From positions 4,278,001-4,342,000 of the forward strand of contig NZ_VLKF01000001.1 of assembly GCF_007994135.1 (NCBI RefSeq): DNA of 64,000 nucleotides, read 5' to 3'. Origin of the DNA: Modestobacter roseus (GTDB lineage Bacteria; Actinomycetota; Actinomycetes; Mycobacteriales; Geodermatophilaceae). A program made the position numbers and the translations under genes. The notes under the pieces were generated by a model. The model saw only the letters and a program-made list of their open reading frames with translations. It did not search any database and had not been told where the DNA came from. Positions 38,318 to 44,336 of the stretch are shown here, in pieces. Every line of letters starts with the position of its first letter. Positions within the stretch are counted from its first letter, which is position 1.

Positions 38318-39171
38318 GCCGCACGCTGCCACGCCCCGGCCGGTGCGTGGTGATGGGCGTCCTCAACGTCACGCCGGACTCCTTCTCCGACGGCGGCACC
38401 TTCGCCGACACCGCCACCGCCGTCGCGCACGGCCGGCGCATGCACGCCGCGGGCGCCGACTACGTCGACGTCGGGGGCGAGTCGACCCGCCCCGGCGCCG
38501 ACCGCGTCGACGCCGAGGAGGAGTGCCGGCGCGTCGTGCCGGTGGTCCGCGAGCTGGCCGCCGCGGGCGTGCGGGTGAGCGTGGACACCACCCGCGCGGA
38601 GGTCGCCGAGGCGGCGCTCGACGCCGGCGCGGTGCTGGTCAACGACGTCAGCGGCGGGCTGGCCGACGCCGGCATGGCCCGGCTGGTCGCCGACGCCGGC
38701 GTCCCGTGGGTGCTGATGCACTGGCGGGGCCACAGCCGCGAGATGTACGCGGCGGCCCGCTACGGCGACGTCGTCACCGAGGTCGCCGCCGAGCTGACCG
38801 CGCGGGTGGAGGACGTCGTCGCGGCCGGCGTCGACCCGGCGCAGCTGGTGCTCGACCCGGGGCTGGGCTTCGCCAAGAACGCCGAGCACAACTGGGCGCT
38901 GCTGGCCGGGCTGGACCGGCTGGTCGCCCTCGGGCTGCCGGTGCTGGTGGGCGCCTCGCGCAAGACGTTCCTGGGGCGGCTGCTGGCCGGCCCCGACGGC
39001 GCCGTCCGGCCGGTCGAGGGCCGGGAGGCGGCGACGACGGCGATCTCGGTGCTCGCCGCGCAGGCCGGCGCCTGGGGCGTGCGGGTGCACGACCCGGTGC
39101 AGTCGCTGGACGCGATCAGGACGCTGGCGGCGGTGCAGGCTGCCCGCGGGGGAGGGAGTGGACGTGGCTGA
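38314..39171 (+). CDS. folP: Dihydropteroate synthase
   Basis: A 285-residue TIM-barrel enzyme joining p-aminobenzoate to the pterin pyrophosphate, the sulfonamide target. Signatures are [16 protein letters not shown] near residue 12, [17 protein letters not shown] near residue 50, [28 protein letters not shown] and [12 protein letters not shown]. All are intact, so it looks like active FolP1 rather than the FolP2 paralogue. GTG 38314 overlaps folE by 4 bases. Confidence 0.96.
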
Positions 39172-39526
39172 CCGGATCACCGTGCACGGCCTGACCGGGC
39201 ACGGCTTCCACGGGGTGTACCCCGAGGAGCGCGAGCGCGGGCAGACCTTCCGGGTGGACGCCGCCCTGGAGCTGGACACCGCCCCCGCGGCGGCGACCGA
39301 CGACCTGACGAGGACGGTCAACTACGCCGAGCTGTCCCAGCGGCTGCACGCGGTGCTCGTCGGCGACCCGGTCGACCTCCTGGAGACCCTCGCCCAGCGG
39401 CTGGCCGACCTCTGCCTCGGGTACGACGGTGTGCAGGCGGTGGAGATCACCGTGCACAAGCCGCAGGCCGACCTCGGGGTCCCCGCCGACGACGTGACGG
39501 TCGCGATCCGGCGCGAGCGCCGATGA
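39164..39526 (+). CDS. folB: Dihydroneopterin aldolase
   Basis: A 120-residue tunnel-fold enzyme that makes 6-hydroxymethyl-dihydropterin. It opens with [27 protein letters not shown]; the Glu/Tyr pocket residues and the late ITVHKPQADLGVPADDVTV, with the catalytic Lys, are visible. GTG 39164 is chosen because GGAGG lies 8 bases upstream; a GTG at 39158 is too close to that site. It overlaps the folP end by 8 bases and folK by 4. Confidence 0.95.
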   Translation: MADRITVHGLTGHGFHGVYPEERERGQTFRVDAALELDTAPAAATDDLTRTVNYAELSQRLHAVLVGDPVDLLETLAQRLADLCLGYDGVQAVEITVHKPQADLGVPADDVTVAIRRERR

Positions 39527-40026
39527 GCCGGGCGGTCCTGTCCCTCGGCGGCAACCTGGGCGACCGCGCGGGCACGCTGCGCCGGGCGATGGAGTCGCTC
39601 GCCGGGCAGGGGCTGGTCGCGCGCTCGGTGCTGTACGAGACGCCGCCGTGGGGGCCGGTCGAGCAGCCGCCGTACCTGAACGCGATCGCCGTCGTGCGGG
39701 GTGACCGGGACGCCGCAGGCTGGCTGGCGCTGGCCCACGAGCTGGAACAGGCGGCCGGGCGCACCCGGGAGGTGCGCTGGGGAGCGCGGACGCTGGACGT
39801 CGACGTGGTCACGGTGACCGCGGACGACGGCACCGCAGTCCGCTCCGACGACCCGCAGCTCACCCTCCCGCACCCGCGGGCGCACGAGCGGGCGTTCGTG
39901 CTGGTGCCGTGGCTGGCGCTGGACCCCGGTGCGGAGCTCCCCGGGCGCGGTGCGGTGGCCGACCTGCTCGCGGCACTGCCGCCCGACGACGTCGCCGCGG
40001 TGGTCCGCTGGGAGCAGCTCGCGTGA
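39523..40026 (+). CDS. folK: 2-amino-4-hydroxy-6-hydroxymethyldihydropteridine diphosphokinase
   Basis: A 167-residue pyrophosphokinase for the pterin alcohol, giving the FolP substrate. Family signatures are LSLGGNLGDRAGTLRRA at the N-terminus, YETPPWGPVEQPPYLNAI near residue 40, RWGARTLDVDVVTV (the RxxPRxLDxDI-type signature, about residues 86-99), and LPHPRAHERAFVLVPWLALDP. ATG 39523 overlaps folB; its stop overlaps the DUF3180 gene. Confidence 0.95.
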   Translation: MSRAVLSLGGNLGDRAGTLRRAMESLAGQGLVARSVLYETPPWGPVEQPPYLNAIAVVRGDRDAAGWLALAHELEQAAGRTREVRWGARTLDVDVVTVTADDGTAVRSDDPQLTLPHPRAHERAFVLVPWLALDPGAELPGRGAVADLLAALPPDDVAAVVRWEQLA

Positions 40027-40520
40027 GCCCGGTGCGCCGCCGCGACCTGGTGGTCCTCGCCGTCGGCATCGCCGTGGCGTCCTGGCTGGTGGTCCGGGCG
40101 GCCTACGGGTCGCTGCCGGTGCGCTCCTGGTGGCTCCCGCTGCCGCTGGGGGTGCTCGCCCTGGCGCTGGCCCTCGGTGCCCGCGCGCTGCGCGCCCGGC
40201 TGGCCGTGCAACGGGACCGCCGTCCGGGGCCGCGGGGGTCGGTCCGGCCGGTCGAGCCGATGCTGGTCGCCCGGCTCGCGGTGCTCGCCCAGGCCAGCGC
40301 CTACGTCGGTGCGGTCTTCGCCGGCGTGTGGGGAGGGCTGCTGCTGCACGCGCTTCCGTCGATCGGTCAGCTGCGAGCGGCCGGTGGCGACGCGGTCACC
40401 GGCGCCATCGGCGTCGTCCTGGGGGCCGCCCTGGTCGCCGCCGCGCTGTGGCTGGAGCACGTCTGCAAGATCCCGCCCGAGCACGACGACGAGGGCACGC
40501 CCGGCGGCGCCCGCGCCTGA
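40023..40520 (+). CDS. DUF3180 membrane protein (Rv3605c-like)
   Basis: A 165-residue protein with four predicted membrane helices: LVVLAVGIAVASWLVVRAAYG, WWLPLPLGVLALALALGARAL, the pair around LAVLAQASAYVGAVFAGVWGGLLL, and AIGVVLGAALVAAALWL. It ends with a short Cys/Pro/acidic tail. This family regularly follows folK in actinomycetes, as here by a 4-base overlap, but no function is known. An accessory or transport role linked to folate is only a guess from position. Confidence 0.88.
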   Translation: MSPVRRRDLVVLAVGIAVASWLVVRAAYGSLPVRSWWLPLPLGVLALALALGARALRARLAVQRDRRPGPRGSVRPVEPMLVARLAVLAQASAYVGAVFAGVWGGLLLHALPSIGQLRAAGGDAVTGAIGVVLGAALVAAALWLEHVCKIPPEHDDEGTPGGARA

Positions 40521-40544
40521 CCGTCTGCCGGCCTCCGAGGCGGG

Positions 40545-41729
40545 TCACACGCGGGTGGCGCCCGCCGTCTCCGGGACGGTGCCCTCGACGGAACGGCGCA
40601 GCGCCGCGTGCAGCGACTCGGGGGTCAGCACCCCGCAGAACCGGTCGCCGTCGAGCACCGCGACCCAGCCGGCCTCCAGCTGCAGCATGGTGGAGAACGC
40701 CGTCTTGAGCGTGGCCTCGACCGGCACCCAGGCCTCCATCCGGCGTGCGACGGTGCGCACCGTGCCGCTCCCGGCGGCCCGCTCGGCGGAGATCCAGCCG
40801 TGCAGGTCCTGCTGGTCGTCGAGCACCACGGCCCAGCGGGCCCCGGCCCGGGTCAGCGCGGCCCGGGCGTCGGCCAGCCCGTCGTCGACGTGCACCACCG
40901 GCGGCTGCTCCAGGTCGTCGAGGTCGATGCCGGTGACCGCCAGCCGCTTGAGGCCGCGGTCGGCACCCACGAAGTCGGCGACGAACGGGGTGGCGGGGGA
41001 GCCGAGCAGCTCCGCCGGCGGGGCGAACTGCTCGACCGTGCCGCCCTCGCTCATCACCGCGATCCGGTCGCCGAGCCGCACCGCCTCCTCGATGTCGTGG
41101 GTGACGAAGACGATGGTCTTGCGCACCGCCTCCTGCAGCCGGAGGAACTCGGTCTGCAGCCGCTCGCGCACGATCGGGTCGACGGCGGAGAACGGCTCGT
41201 CCATCAGCAGGACGCCGGGGTCGGCGGCCAGCGCCCGGGCGACCCCGGCGCGCTGGCGCTGCCCGCCGGAGAGCTGGTGGGGGTAGCGGTCGCCGAACGT
41301 CGCCGCGTCCAAGCCGACCAGCGTGAGCAGCTCCTCCACCCGGTCCCGGGTGCGCTGCTTGTCCCACCCGAGCAGCCGGGGCACGGTGGCGACGTTGCGG
41401 CGCACCGTCTGGTGCGGGAAGAGCCCGACGTTCTGGATGACGTAGCCGATCCGCCGGCGCAGCTGCACCGGGTCGACGTCGGTGACGTCGTCGTCGCCGA
41501 GCAGGATCCGCCCGCTGGTCGGCTCGATGATCCGGTTGATCATCTTCATCGTGGTCGTCTTGCCGCAGCCCGAGGGTCCGACCAGCACGCTGAGCTCGCC
41601 CGCGGCGAAGGTCAGGTCCAGCTCGCGGACCGCGACCGTGCCGTCGGGGTAGCGCTTGCCGACCCCGTCCAGCCGGATCTGCTCGGCTCGTGCTGGTGCG
41701 GGCTTTCCGGGCGGGGCAGTAGCGTCCAC
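40545..41729 (-). CDS. Betaine/choline-type ABC transporter ATP-binding protein with CBS domains
   Basis: A 394-residue OpuCA/ProV-like ATPase. Walker A is VGPSGCGKTTTMKMINR near residue 53, the signature is LSGGQRQRAGVARALAADP, Walker B is VLLMDEPFSAVDP, and FVTHDIEEAVRLGDRI is the H-loop. Residues about 270-380 form a CBS pair (VVHVDDGLADARAALTRAGARW, ...VEATLKTAFSTMLQLEAGWVAVL), which in this family senses ionic strength. It is divergent from the two permease genes and 38 bp from the first start, so a shared regulatory region is expected. The system probably imports osmoprotectants. Confidence 0.93.
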   Translation of the reverse strand: MDATAPPGKPAPARAEQIRLDGVGKRYPDGTVAVRELDLTFAAGELSVLVGPSGCGKTTTMKMINRIIEPTSGRILLGDDDVTDVDPVQLRRRIGYVIQNVGLFPHQTVRRNVATVPRLLGWDKQRTRDRVEELLTLVGLDAATFGDRYPHQLSGGQRQRAGVARALAADPGVLLMDEPFSAVDPIVRERLQTEFLRLQEAVRKTIVFVTHDIEEAVRLGDRIAVMSEGGTVEQFAPPAELLGSPATPFVADFVGADRGLKRLAVTGIDLDDLEQPPVVHVDDGLADARAALTRAGARWAVVLDDQQDLHGWISAERAAGSGTVRTVARRMEAWVPVEATLKTAFSTMLQLEAGWVAVLDGDRFCGVLTPESLHAALRRSVEGTVPETAGATRV

Positions 41730-41767
41730 GAGGTGGCCTTCCTGGCAGGCGCCCGGTGCTGAGCGCG

Positions 41768-42454
41768 ATGAGCGATGACGTGCTCGCAGTCGATGCGGCG
41801 CCGAACCCCTGGTTCGACCCCTCCTACGTGACCCGTGAGTGGGACACCATTGTGGACCTGGCCGGCGAGCACGTGCGGCTCACCGTCGGCGCGGTCGTGC
41901 TCGGTGCCCTGATCGCCCTCCCGCTGGCGCTGCTCGCCCGGCGCAGCCGGTGGCTGGCCGGCCCGGTGCTCGGCCTGTCGACGCTGATCTACACCATCCC
42001 GTCGTTGGCGATGTTCGCCTTCATCGCGCCGGCCACCGGGCTGACGACGACGACGGTGCTGGTCGGGCTGGTGCTCTACTCGCTGGTGATCCTGGTCCGG
42101 AACTTCCTCGCCGGCCTGCGGTCGGTGCCACCGGACGTGCGGGAGGCCGCGCAGGGCATGGGCTACGGGCCGGTGCGGCTGTTCTGGCAGGTCGAGCTGC
42201 CGCTGGCGCTGCCGTCCTTCATCGCCGGCCTGCGGGTGGCCACGGTCTCCACGGTCGCGCTGGTCACCGTCGGGGTGATCGTCGGGCACGGTGGGCTGGG
42301 GCAGCTGATCACCGGGGGGTTCGCCGCGAACTTCTACCGCGCCGAGATCGTCACCGGCGTCGTCGGCTGCGTGCTGCTGGCGCTGATCGGTGACCTCCTG
42401 CTGGCGGGGGCCGAGCGGGTGCTGACCCCCTGGTCGCGGCGGGTGGCGGCGTGA
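41768..42454 (+). CDS. Osmoprotectant ABC transporter permease (OpuCB-like)
   Basis: A 228-residue BPD-type permease. Five or six membrane helices surround the EAA loop EAAQGMGYGPVRLFWQVELPLALPSFIAGLR (about residues 121-151). An N-terminal stretch of about 24 residues before the first amphipathic region contains WFDPSYVTREWDTIVDLAGEHVRL. ATG 41768 is used; a GTG four codons upstream is possible. It overlaps the second permease by 4 bases. It forms the channel with that permease. Confidence 0.92.
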   Translation: MSDDVLAVDAAPNPWFDPSYVTREWDTIVDLAGEHVRLTVGAVVLGALIALPLALLARRSRWLAGPVLGLSTLIYTIPSLAMFAFIAPATGLTTTTVLVGLVLYSLVILVRNFLAGLRSVPPDVREAAQGMGYGPVRLFWQVELPLALPSFIAGLRVATVSTVALVTVGVIVGHGGLGQLITGGFAANFYRAEIVTGVVGCVLLALIGDLLLAGAERVLTPWSRRVAA

Positions 42455-43167
42455 ACCGGCTGCAGGACGCCGTCGTCTACCTCAACGACCCGTTCAACTG
42501 GACCCGGCCGAACGGGATCGTCGACCTGCTGGTCGAGCACCTGCGGATCTCCGGGCTGGCGGTGCTGGTGGCCCTGCTGATCGGGGTCCCGGTGGGCGCG
42601 CTGCTGGGGCACACCGGCCGGGGTGGGGGCTTCGTCGTGGGGTTGTCCAACGTGTCCCGCGCCGTGCCCACCCTGGCCCTGCTCACGCTGTTCGCGGTGA
42701 CCCCCATCGGCTTCGGCCCGACGGCGACGACGATCGCGCTGGCGGTGTTCGCGATCCCGCCGGTGCTCTCCAACACCCACGTCGGGTTCCGCGGCGTCGA
42801 CCGTGACGTCGTCGAGGCGTCCCGGGCGATGGGCATGGACGGCCGGCAGGTGCTGCTGCGGGCCGAGCTGCCGCTGGCGGTGCCGATGGTGATGACCGGG
42901 GTGCGCACCGCCGCCGTCCAGGTGGTCGCCACCGCGACGCTCGCCGCGCTGGTCGCCGGAGGCGGGCTGGGCCAGATCATCACCCTCGGGTTCCGGCAGC
43001 AGGACTACGGCGCCGTGCTCGCCGGGGCGCTCGTCGTCGCCGGTCTCGCCGTCCTCACCGAACTGGCGCTCGCGGTGTTGAGCTGGGCGGTCACCCCGGG
43101 CCAGCGGCAGCTGCCGTGGACGCGGCTGCGGGTGCGCCGCCGGGTGCAGGCGACCTCTCCCCTCTGA
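42451..43167 (+). CDS. Osmoprotectant ABC transporter permease (OpuCD-like)
   Basis: A 238-residue permease with the EAA loop EASRAMGMDGRQVLLRAELPLAVPMVMTGVR near residue 128 and the GGGLGQIITLGF stretch typical of this family. The start is GTG, overlapping the first permease. Two permeases, one ATPase with CBS domains and one lipoprotein binding protein make a complete OpuC-type importer. The 143-bp gap before the binding-protein gene may carry a separate promoter. Confidence 0.92.
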   Translation: MNRLQDAVVYLNDPFNWTRPNGIVDLLVEHLRISGLAVLVALLIGVPVGALLGHTGRGGGFVVGLSNVSRAVPTLALLTLFAVTPIGFGPTATTIALAVFAIPPVLSNTHVGFRGVDRDVVEASRAMGMDGRQVLLRAELPLAVPMVMTGVRTAAVQVVATATLAALVAGGGLGQIITLGFRQQDYGAVLAGALVVAGLAVLTELALAVLSWAVTPGQRQLPWTRLRVRRRVQATSPL

Positions 43168-43310
43168 GCTGCGGTCACGGAACGGCAACGGCTTCCCCGA
43201 GGAGTTGCGGTCCGGCTCCCGAGGAGGTTGGTTGTGCACTGCGGGTTCGTCCCGCCAGACACGCGTGGCAGTCCATCAGGGGGCGCCACGGGACACAGAA
43301 GGCGGAGTCG

Positions 43311-44336
43311 ATGCGCACGCGTCCCCGTACGTTCACCCACCTCGCCGTCACCGCCGCGGCCGCCGCGGTGCTCGCGACCGCTGCCTGCGGGGAGTCCGGC
43401 TCGTCCGGCACCGGCGGCAACGCCCAGGCCAGCGGCTCGGCCGGCGGCTCCGGTGGTGACGCCTGCGCCCCCGTCCCCGGTGACCAGCTGGTCGTGCTCG
43501 AGGACGACCAGCAGCTGCAGAACGCCGACAACATCATCCCGGCGGTCAACGCCCAGGCCGCCGCGGCCAACCCGGCCCTGGTGGAGACGCTGAACGCCGT
43601 CTCGGCGGAGCTGACCACCGAGCAGCTGATCGAGATGAACGCCGCGGTGGACGTGGAGCGGCAGAGCGCCGAGGACGTCGCCGCGGCCTACGTCGCCGAC
43701 AACGGCCTGGACTCCGGTTCGGGCGGGAGCGGCGCGGTCGTGGTGGGCGCCGCGGACTTCACCGAGTCGCAGGTGCTGGCCAACGTCTACGCCGACGCGC
43801 TGACGGCCGCGGGCTTCCAGGCGAGCGTGCAGACCGTGGGCAACCGCGAGCTGTACCTGCCGGCGCTGCAGCGTGGGGAGATCCAGGCATTCCCCGAGTA
43901 CCTGGCCACGGTCGCCGACATCCTCAACGAGCAGGTGACCCCCGGTGCCGACCCGATCGCCTCGGGCGACGCGGAGGCGACGGCGGCCGCGCTGGAGCCG
44001 ATCGCCGAGCAGGCCGGGCTGGTGTTCGGCGAGCCGGCCGAGGCCGCCGACCAGAACGCCTTCGCCGTCACCACCGAGTTCGCCGACGCCCTCGGCGTCA
44101 GCACGCTGTCCGAGCTCGCCGAGGCCTGCGGTGACGGCTCGCTGCTGCTCGGTGGTCCGGGCGAGTGCCCGACCCGGCCGCAGTGCCAGCCCGGCCTGGA
44201 GGACACCTACGGCCTGGAGTTCGCCGGGTTCTCCGAGTACGACGCCGGTGGCCCGCTGACCAAGGCGGCCATCCAGCAGGGCGAGGTCTCGATCGGCCTG
44301 GTCTTCAGCTCCGACGGCGCCCTCGCCCAGGGCTGA
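43311..44336 (+). CDS. Osmoprotectant-binding lipoprotein with circularly permuted OpuAC domain order
   Basis: A 341-residue lipoprotein (lipidation Cys at residue 26 in LATAACGES) with a Gly/Ser-rich linker. Residues about 58-135 (QLVVLEDDQQLQNADNIIP, NAVSAELTTEQLIEMNAAVDV, AAYVADNGL) match what is normally the C-terminal end of the OpuAC fold. After DSGSGGSG comes what is normally the N-terminal start, VVVGAADFTESQVLANVYADAL, then VGNRELYLPALQRGEIQAFPEY, and the protein ends at VSIGLVFSSDGALAQG, exactly where the LVVLEDD segment usually follows. The order is thus permuted, not truncated. GGCGGAG provides the ribosome site. It should feed betaine, choline or similar to the adjacent permeases. 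Confidence 0.9.
   Translation: MRTRPRTFTHLAVTAAAAAVLATAACGESGSSGTGGNAQASGSAGGSGGDACAPVPGDQLVVLEDDQQLQNADNIIPAVNAQAAAANPALVETLNAVSAELTTEQLIEMNAAVDVERQSAEDVAAAYVADNGLDSGSGGSGAVVVGAADFTESQVLANVYADALTAAGFQASVQTVGNRELYLPALQRGEIQAFPEYLATVADILNEQVTPGADPIASGDAEATAAALEPIAEQAGLVFGEPAEAADQNAFAVTTEFADALGVSTLSELAEACGDGSLLLGGPGECPTRPQCQPGLEDTYGLEFAGFSEYDAGGPLTKAAIQQGEVSIGLVFSSDGALAQG

Follow-up and report, generated by a model that had tools for sequence, protein, structure and literature searches.

How does a binding protein come to have its two halves in exchanged order along the chain, and is such a protein still complete? The question is raised by a lipoprotein of 341 amino acids (aa) encoded in a 64,000-nucleotide stretch of the Modestobacter roseus genome (contig NZ_VLKF01000001.1, positions 4,278,001 to 4,342,000), referred to here at its full length as the window. 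The lipoprotein is very probably the binding protein of a type I ATP-binding cassette (ABC) importer and belongs with ProX, OpuBC, OpuCC and EgtU, as a circular permutant that arose in nature. Its order of segments, termed the window order below, is that of a conserved family and is not confined to one protein; relatives exist with the standard order and with two other cuts.

The exchange is evident from the Pfam family OpuAC (PF04069), which matches the lipoprotein in two pieces. Profile positions 187-256 are matched first, at window 43485-43697 (E 2e-13), and positions 2-184 second, at window 43734-44327 (E 3e-27), giving a total of 145.8 bits against a curated cut-off of 21.2. A collinear match in a single stretch is not obtained, since 187-256 precedes 2-184. 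By contrast, E. coli ProX and a relative, L171, each give one unbroken match to profile positions 2-256, and the exchanged order is therefore a property of the lipoprotein rather than of the profile. The standard order of E. coli ProX is taken from Pfam, profiles of the separate segments having given no usable match to it for segment order. Residues 1-191 of the A. fulgidus ProX (AfProX) chain align to lipoprotein residues 136-333 (i-Evalue 1.5e-12) and residues 201-273 align to residues 60-133, the latter match being weak alone (i-Evalue 0.41) and reaching 7e-6 with the family profile. A circular permutation of an OpuAC/OpuCC-type protein, as proposed in a preliminary description of this DNA, is borne out by each of these comparisons. 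With the two lobes denoted D1 and D2, the parts of the gene are as follows.

43311..44336, plus strand: permuted solute-binding lipoprotein P0001, 341 aa (open reading frame from an ATG at 43311 to a stop that ends at 44336; Pfam OpuAC in exchanged order).
43311..43388, plus strand: signal peptide, residues 1-26, read from the sequence and ending ...LATAAC26, which we take to be lipobox-like; C26 is invariant in 12/12 rows of alignment A1.
43389..43463, plus strand: flexible Gly/Ser tether, residues 27-51 (predicted local distance difference test score, pLDDT, ~44 up to residue 50).
43464..43466, plus strand: C52, start of the first ordered segment and putative disulfide partner of C273 (cysteine conservation).
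43482..43712, plus strand: segment A, residues 58-134, normally C-terminal, comprising hinge strand 2 and the second part of D1 (Pfam 187-256; AfProX 201-273; predicted structure).
43713..43730, plus strand: Gly/Ser linker SGSGGS, residues 135-140, fusing the old C- and N-termini (comparison with relatives).
43731..44327, plus strand: segment B, residues 141-339, normally N-terminal, comprising the first part of D1, hinge strand 1 and D2 (Pfam 2-184; AfProX 1-191).
44127..44129, plus strand: C273 in D2, co-occurring with C52 in window-type proteins (cysteine conservation).
44166..44186, plus strand: the pair C286 and C292, common to many relatives of other orders (sequence comparison).

The position of the cut is apparent when the lipoprotein is set beside its standard-order relatives. 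Its C-terminus reads ...VFSSDGALAQG* and its first stretch after the tether ...DACAPVPGDQLVVLEDD; in near standard-order relatives the chain is continuous at this point, L171 for example reading VFSSDGGVA-AF-NLVVLTDDKK. The four nearest standard-order relatives have 2-5 residues between the two profile parts, where the lipoprotein has its ends. The statement in the preliminary description that nothing is lost is thus accurate to within a few loop residues. The cut lies at Pfam 184/187. Judged by the EgtUC lobe borders given in the available text of PMC9732360, this would be the point where D2 passes into hinge strand 2, and for this reason the strand itself should still be present. The chain runs from the tether through a stretch that would lie by D2 to hinge strand 2, the second part of D1, the Gly/Ser linker (6-12 residues long across 102 window-type records), the first part of D1, hinge strand 1 and finally D2. 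Such a protein would still be a Venus flytrap, closing on a small ligand and docking on two permeases, whilst its membrane tether would have shifted from D1 to the hinge/D2 edge. The displacement of the tether to another place had been foreseen and is supported; the changed hinge crossings that had also been foreseen are doubtful, as the hinge was probably not rebuilt and both strands seem to remain, with chain continuity cut at one only.

Structure prediction is consistent with one complete binding protein. AlphaFold2 returned a single confident fold (mature part pLDDT 92.3, predicted template modelling score 0.84), and VIA-align comparisons match the model to the two-lobe fold of the A. fulgidus ProX/OpuBC/OpuCC/EgtUC group, so that sequence and fold both show kinship with cluster F-III (ProX/OpuBC/OpuCC). 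The model is confident through segment A, in keeping with the earlier expectation that the N-terminal 80 residues complete a lobe, although that lobe is D1, in which the usual N-terminus lies, and not the 'C-terminal lobe' that had been named. The closest solved relatives by sequence are AfProX, EgtUC and OsmF (window-type profile E 5e-29, 5.5e-28 and 2.2e-21; the EgtUC value is that of a mutant chain, the wild type giving 9.6e-28). Among the related PDB sequences matched by this profile, which belong with cluster F-III (ProX, OpuBC/OpuCC, OsmF/YehZ, EgtUC), the window order was found in 0/27.

Two known permutants offer a comparison. B. subtilis OpuAC (2b4l, 2b4m, 5nxx, 3chg) is absent from the 27 PDB sequence matches of the window-type profile. 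In the structural alignment its C-terminus falls at model residue 271, which would place the OpuAC cut inside D2, at about Pfam 113/114, rather than at the D2-hinge border; the lipoprotein, cut at 184/187, differs from it in this respect. Treponema pallidum Tp0684 (MglB-2) is, like the lipoprotein, a tethered and circularly permuted binding protein. According to the available text of PMC4990184, permuted Tp0684 still binds its ligand, and tethering has been put forward as a possible cause of the permutation. On the same source, Tp0684 differs in its type I/cluster B fold, its sugar ligand and a permutation which adds a hinge crossing, where the lipoprotein would have one cut.

The window order recurs in many genomes. 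Within the genus it is found in 14/23, M. roseus included, while eight have OpuAC positions ~114-257 followed by 2-113 and one, 72% complete, gave no OpuAC match. Among other genomes of the order 3/16 have the window order and a fourth shows the first half at a contig end. In a sample of 394 genomes from the class, 17 match the window-order profile end to end, four further matches being standard-order relatives. Across the phylum 129/396 sampled genomes match, two of them end to end, and among the matches listed a cut at 113/114 occurs in 12 genomes and a cut further inside D2 in two; the segment profiles confirmed 14/14 of these permutants. Phyla beyond Actinomycetota were covered by a GTDB scan only, in which, with one genome per species, 372 loci encode relatives. 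Among the best 80 of the 372, on which the counts rest, the window order is found in 80/80, with best-segment identity to the lipoprotein down to 54% over almost full length, and the families represented are Geodermatophilaceae (60), Promicromonosporaceae (7), Micromonosporaceae (4), Cellulomonadaceae (3), Demequinaceae (3) and three others (1 each). A survey of homologues for the same order had been suggested; what emerges is not a single unusual protein but a conserved family, with relatives cut elsewhere. The loci fetched for comparison comprise 102 window-type records (90 distinct, some genomes appearing twice), 44 of standard order, 19 with the 113/114 cut and two with the third cut.

Some individual loci deserve mention. 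The third cut, in the second part of D2, is seen in L142 and L143 (genomes G670 and G677); L142 begins FEFRPLDAGGP... and ends ...GLEETYGLSFAS. In G003, one of the 14 window-order genomes of the genus, an extra frame of 158 aa (L157) carries a fragment matching OpuAC 116-256, the other half not being listed. L091, titled Bacillus sp. AZ43 (UNVERIFIED_ORG), holds a permuted gene of Geodermatophilaceae type with 69% identity, and the organism name is probably wrong.

A pair of cysteines accompanies the window order. C52 and C273 are both present in 102/102 window-type records, and a cysteine stands at the C52 place in 43/43 rows of alignment A2. Among records of the other orders, 0/65 have a cysteine in the ten positions preceding segment A, and 0/50 testable ones (29 standard, 19 and two permuted) have an equivalent of C273; 15 standard outgroup-type records are left out of the latter comparison. 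The lipoprotein has four exported cysteines besides lipobox C26 and this, together with the joint occurrence of C52 and C273, suggests a disulfide between them near the cut. Such a bond, whose two cysteines are found together only with the window order, would fasten the new N-terminal stretch to D2 and re-close the cut, with both lobe connections kept.

Trees built from sequences rearranged into standard order support descent of the window type from the standard order, separately from the other permuted relatives. The window type forms one clade (99/97) in a 61-row tree, and its nearest tree relatives, L171-L174, L131-L134 and L138, are all of standard order. Of these, L171-L174 (genomes G141, G057, G759 and G043) share with the lipoprotein the motifs DQNAFAV, LQNADN and VFSSDG, L171 being 54% identical over segment B, and differ in their standard order and in being without the C52/C273 pair. 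It is improbable that the window order was derived from the 113/114 form by a second step. Both permuted orders have a fused A-to-B1 joint and in the genus both adjoin folB-folK; however, a clade of the window type and the genus 113/114 type is rejected by the approximately unbiased (AU) test (p 5e-9), and this result and the standard-order neighbours led us to discard the derivation.

The same phylogeny bears on whether two segments of different origin were fused by domain shuffling, in place of the permutation of one gene. The best match of segment B lies within L171-L174, and that of segment A elsewhere, in 69/102 records, as such a fusion might leave them. Yet the best A match in 100/102 and the best B match in 102/102 fall in the same supported clade (100/97), which consists of L131-L134, L138, L171-L174 and the window type (L167 is the same gene as L131), and segment A, of which two matches lie outside, is short (77 aa) and resolves poorly. 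With A and B matches nearly all in one supported clade, a fusion of unrelated parts is distinctly improbable and was rejected.

For the ligand, AfProX was compared with 43 aligned window-type members. Y111, Y190 and Y214 are aromatic-cage tyrosines of AfProX. Y63 is a further cage tyrosine according to the available text of PMC9732360. Y63 corresponds to Y197 (43/43) and Y190 to F332 (40/43), whilst Y111 is replaced by N249 and Y214 by D73 (43/43 each). T66 and R149 are retained as T200 and R289 (43/43 each), and K13 is replaced at A148 (Ala 34, Gly 8, Phe 1; Ala/Gly 42/43). The four-tyrosine aromatic cage of cluster F-III (AfProX Y63, Y111, Y190 and Y214) is not found in the lipoprotein. The replacement of two cage tyrosines by Asp and Asn makes a plain betaine annotation unsafe, and 'osmolyte-binding', as the preliminary description had it, is not substantiated. 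A substrate assigned by family name was likewise rejected: OsmF (NCBIfam NF049931), the sole NCBIfam name obtained, scored 87.2 bits, far under its equivalog cut-off of 400, and the residues of the cage speak against a simple betaine assignment. T200 and R289 (AfProX Thr66 and Arg149) being retained, though Lys13 is not, the lipoprotein probably binds a small zwitterion or carboxylate; a classical trimethylammonium compound held in a four-tyrosine cage is unlikely.

The two replaced cage positions might be expected of a relic which folds but no longer delivers substrate. This is very improbable, as many residues are invariant, the replacements predate the permutation, the standard-order L171-L174 also having DQNAFAV and LQNADN, and the partner genes are retained. 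The latter lie upstream of the lipoprotein gene.

42451..43167, plus strand: permease 2, BPD_transp_1 (Pfam; conserved operon).
41756..42454, plus strand: permease 1, BPD_transp_1 (Pfam; conserved operon).
40545..41729, minus strand: ABC ATPase with a CBS domain match, ProV/OpuCA-like and divergent (Pfam; TIGR01186).

With the genes for the ATPase and for two BPD_transp_1 permeases next to that of the lipoprotein, the gene set of a type I ABC importer is complete. The ATPase, at 325.3 bits, falls just under the TIGR01186 (ProV/OpuCA) subfamily cut-off of 326.6. The order divergent ATPase, permease, permease, binding protein is found in 90/102 window-type records and differs in 12. An assembly rearrangement, which the preliminary description had named as a refuting outcome, or fusion of gene fragments, whether artefact or recent accident of one strain, has practically no probability and is ruled out, since the window order recurs in many assemblies, as the GTDB, class and genus counts above show, in isolates and metagenome bins alike and with a conserved operon.

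A broader account of the permutations can be offered tentatively, at somewhat less than an even chance. A family of tethered binding proteins in Actinomycetota would have been permuted independently at least four times, at three points within D2 or on its border, short linkers now joining the old termini; the window cut would be re-closed by the new C52-C273 disulfide, the two-stranded hinge kept and the tether moved beside the hinge, and different permutants would take each other's place at one chromosomal site. If true, tether position is a selected property of these importers. In the 61-row tree the 113/114 cut needs five changes, four of them forced by starred branches; in an 81-row quick tree starred branches force only two, against five by parsimony, which is less favourable to the count. 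Placing all 113/114 rows in one clade is rejected (AU p 1.7e-4), as is placing all permuted rows in one clade in two tests, whose p-values (3e-116 and 4e-5) lie so far apart that they are usable for the rejection only and not for its size. For the genus-side 113/114 rows a single clade is not rejected (p 0.41), again less favourable to the count. Four events or more would follow (the window cut, the third cut and two instances of the 113/114 cut) provided that the standard order came first and was never restored, change counts being unable to separate gain from loss of an order. The likely route would be a tandem duplication in frame, after which the outer pieces were lost; no duplication intermediate was seen within the lipoprotein's own family. 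The ratio of nonsynonymous to synonymous substitution rates (dN/dS, simple counting) is below 1 in 8/8 comparisons for both segments.

Several points weigh against these interpretations. The root-mean-square deviation between the model and OpuAC is large (3.4-4.0), partly perhaps through lobe opening, and the evidence for the tether shift is confined to the sequence and the order of the fold. A single event, inherited since, may lie behind the cysteine pair, and its association with the cut would then count as just one observation in evolution. The grouping of L175 with the other window-type rows is not firm: with it added, the window type needs two changes, a single clade not being rejected (p 0.37). 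The dN/dS values are 0.25-0.47 in the three closest comparisons only and reach 0.88 in distant ones, where high-GC codon bias depresses dS; because of this bias dN/dS is weak evidence of selection.

L175 itself (genome G763), a divergent member of the window type, sits on a long branch of the tree and has equivalents of both C52 and C273. In five fetched of the eight same-genus genomes with the 113/114 cut (L151, L152, L153, L154 and L155) the importer adjoins folB-folK, which elsewhere in the genus adjoins the window-type importer (compared region: window 39158-44336). In these five importers the permeases are only 40-44% identical (values for four of the five) and the gene order is reversed, one flank being covered; one permuted transporter has apparently been exchanged for another beside folB-folK in the genus. 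Two full tandem OpuAC matches in one long frame occur in one family of the class (G320:C9:62504-64066, G169:C1:7080361-7081929 and others), apparently intermediates of the kind that the duplication route needs, albeit in another branch of the superfamily.

Permutation in the superfamily is already known, since CPSARST, according to the available text of PMC2395249, detected a circular permutation among the betaine-binding proteins 2b4l, 1r9l and 1sw1. The 113/114 cut is similar to the one that the structural match points to in OpuAC. The available portions of PMC2861598 and PMC3688454 contain nothing on this permutation, and that of PMC4990184 refers to work on 'domain dislocation'. The window cut, its wide conservation, the cysteine pair and the number of separate permutations in one actinobacterial family were not found by literature searches on permuted members of this family, permuted solute-binding proteins, OpuAC/ProX and a broader theme, most subscription papers being outside coverage.

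Natural circular permutants are usually found singly and by way of structure. Here, three cut points within one family and phylum, alongside standard-order relatives and with like operons, allow a direct comparison of how transport depends on where the tether sits and on whether the hinge is continuous; comparable swaps, apparently made more than once and at other points in the same phylum, amount to a natural experiment on tethering and hinging. The cysteine pair yields a sharp prediction. More permuted cases may lie unseen, because each such protein breaks up into two partial matches in a collinear profile scan. Naturally accepted cuts also matter to designers who insert fluorescent proteins into related binding proteins, and iNicSnFR and iAChSnFR are among the PDB matches of the lipoprotein.
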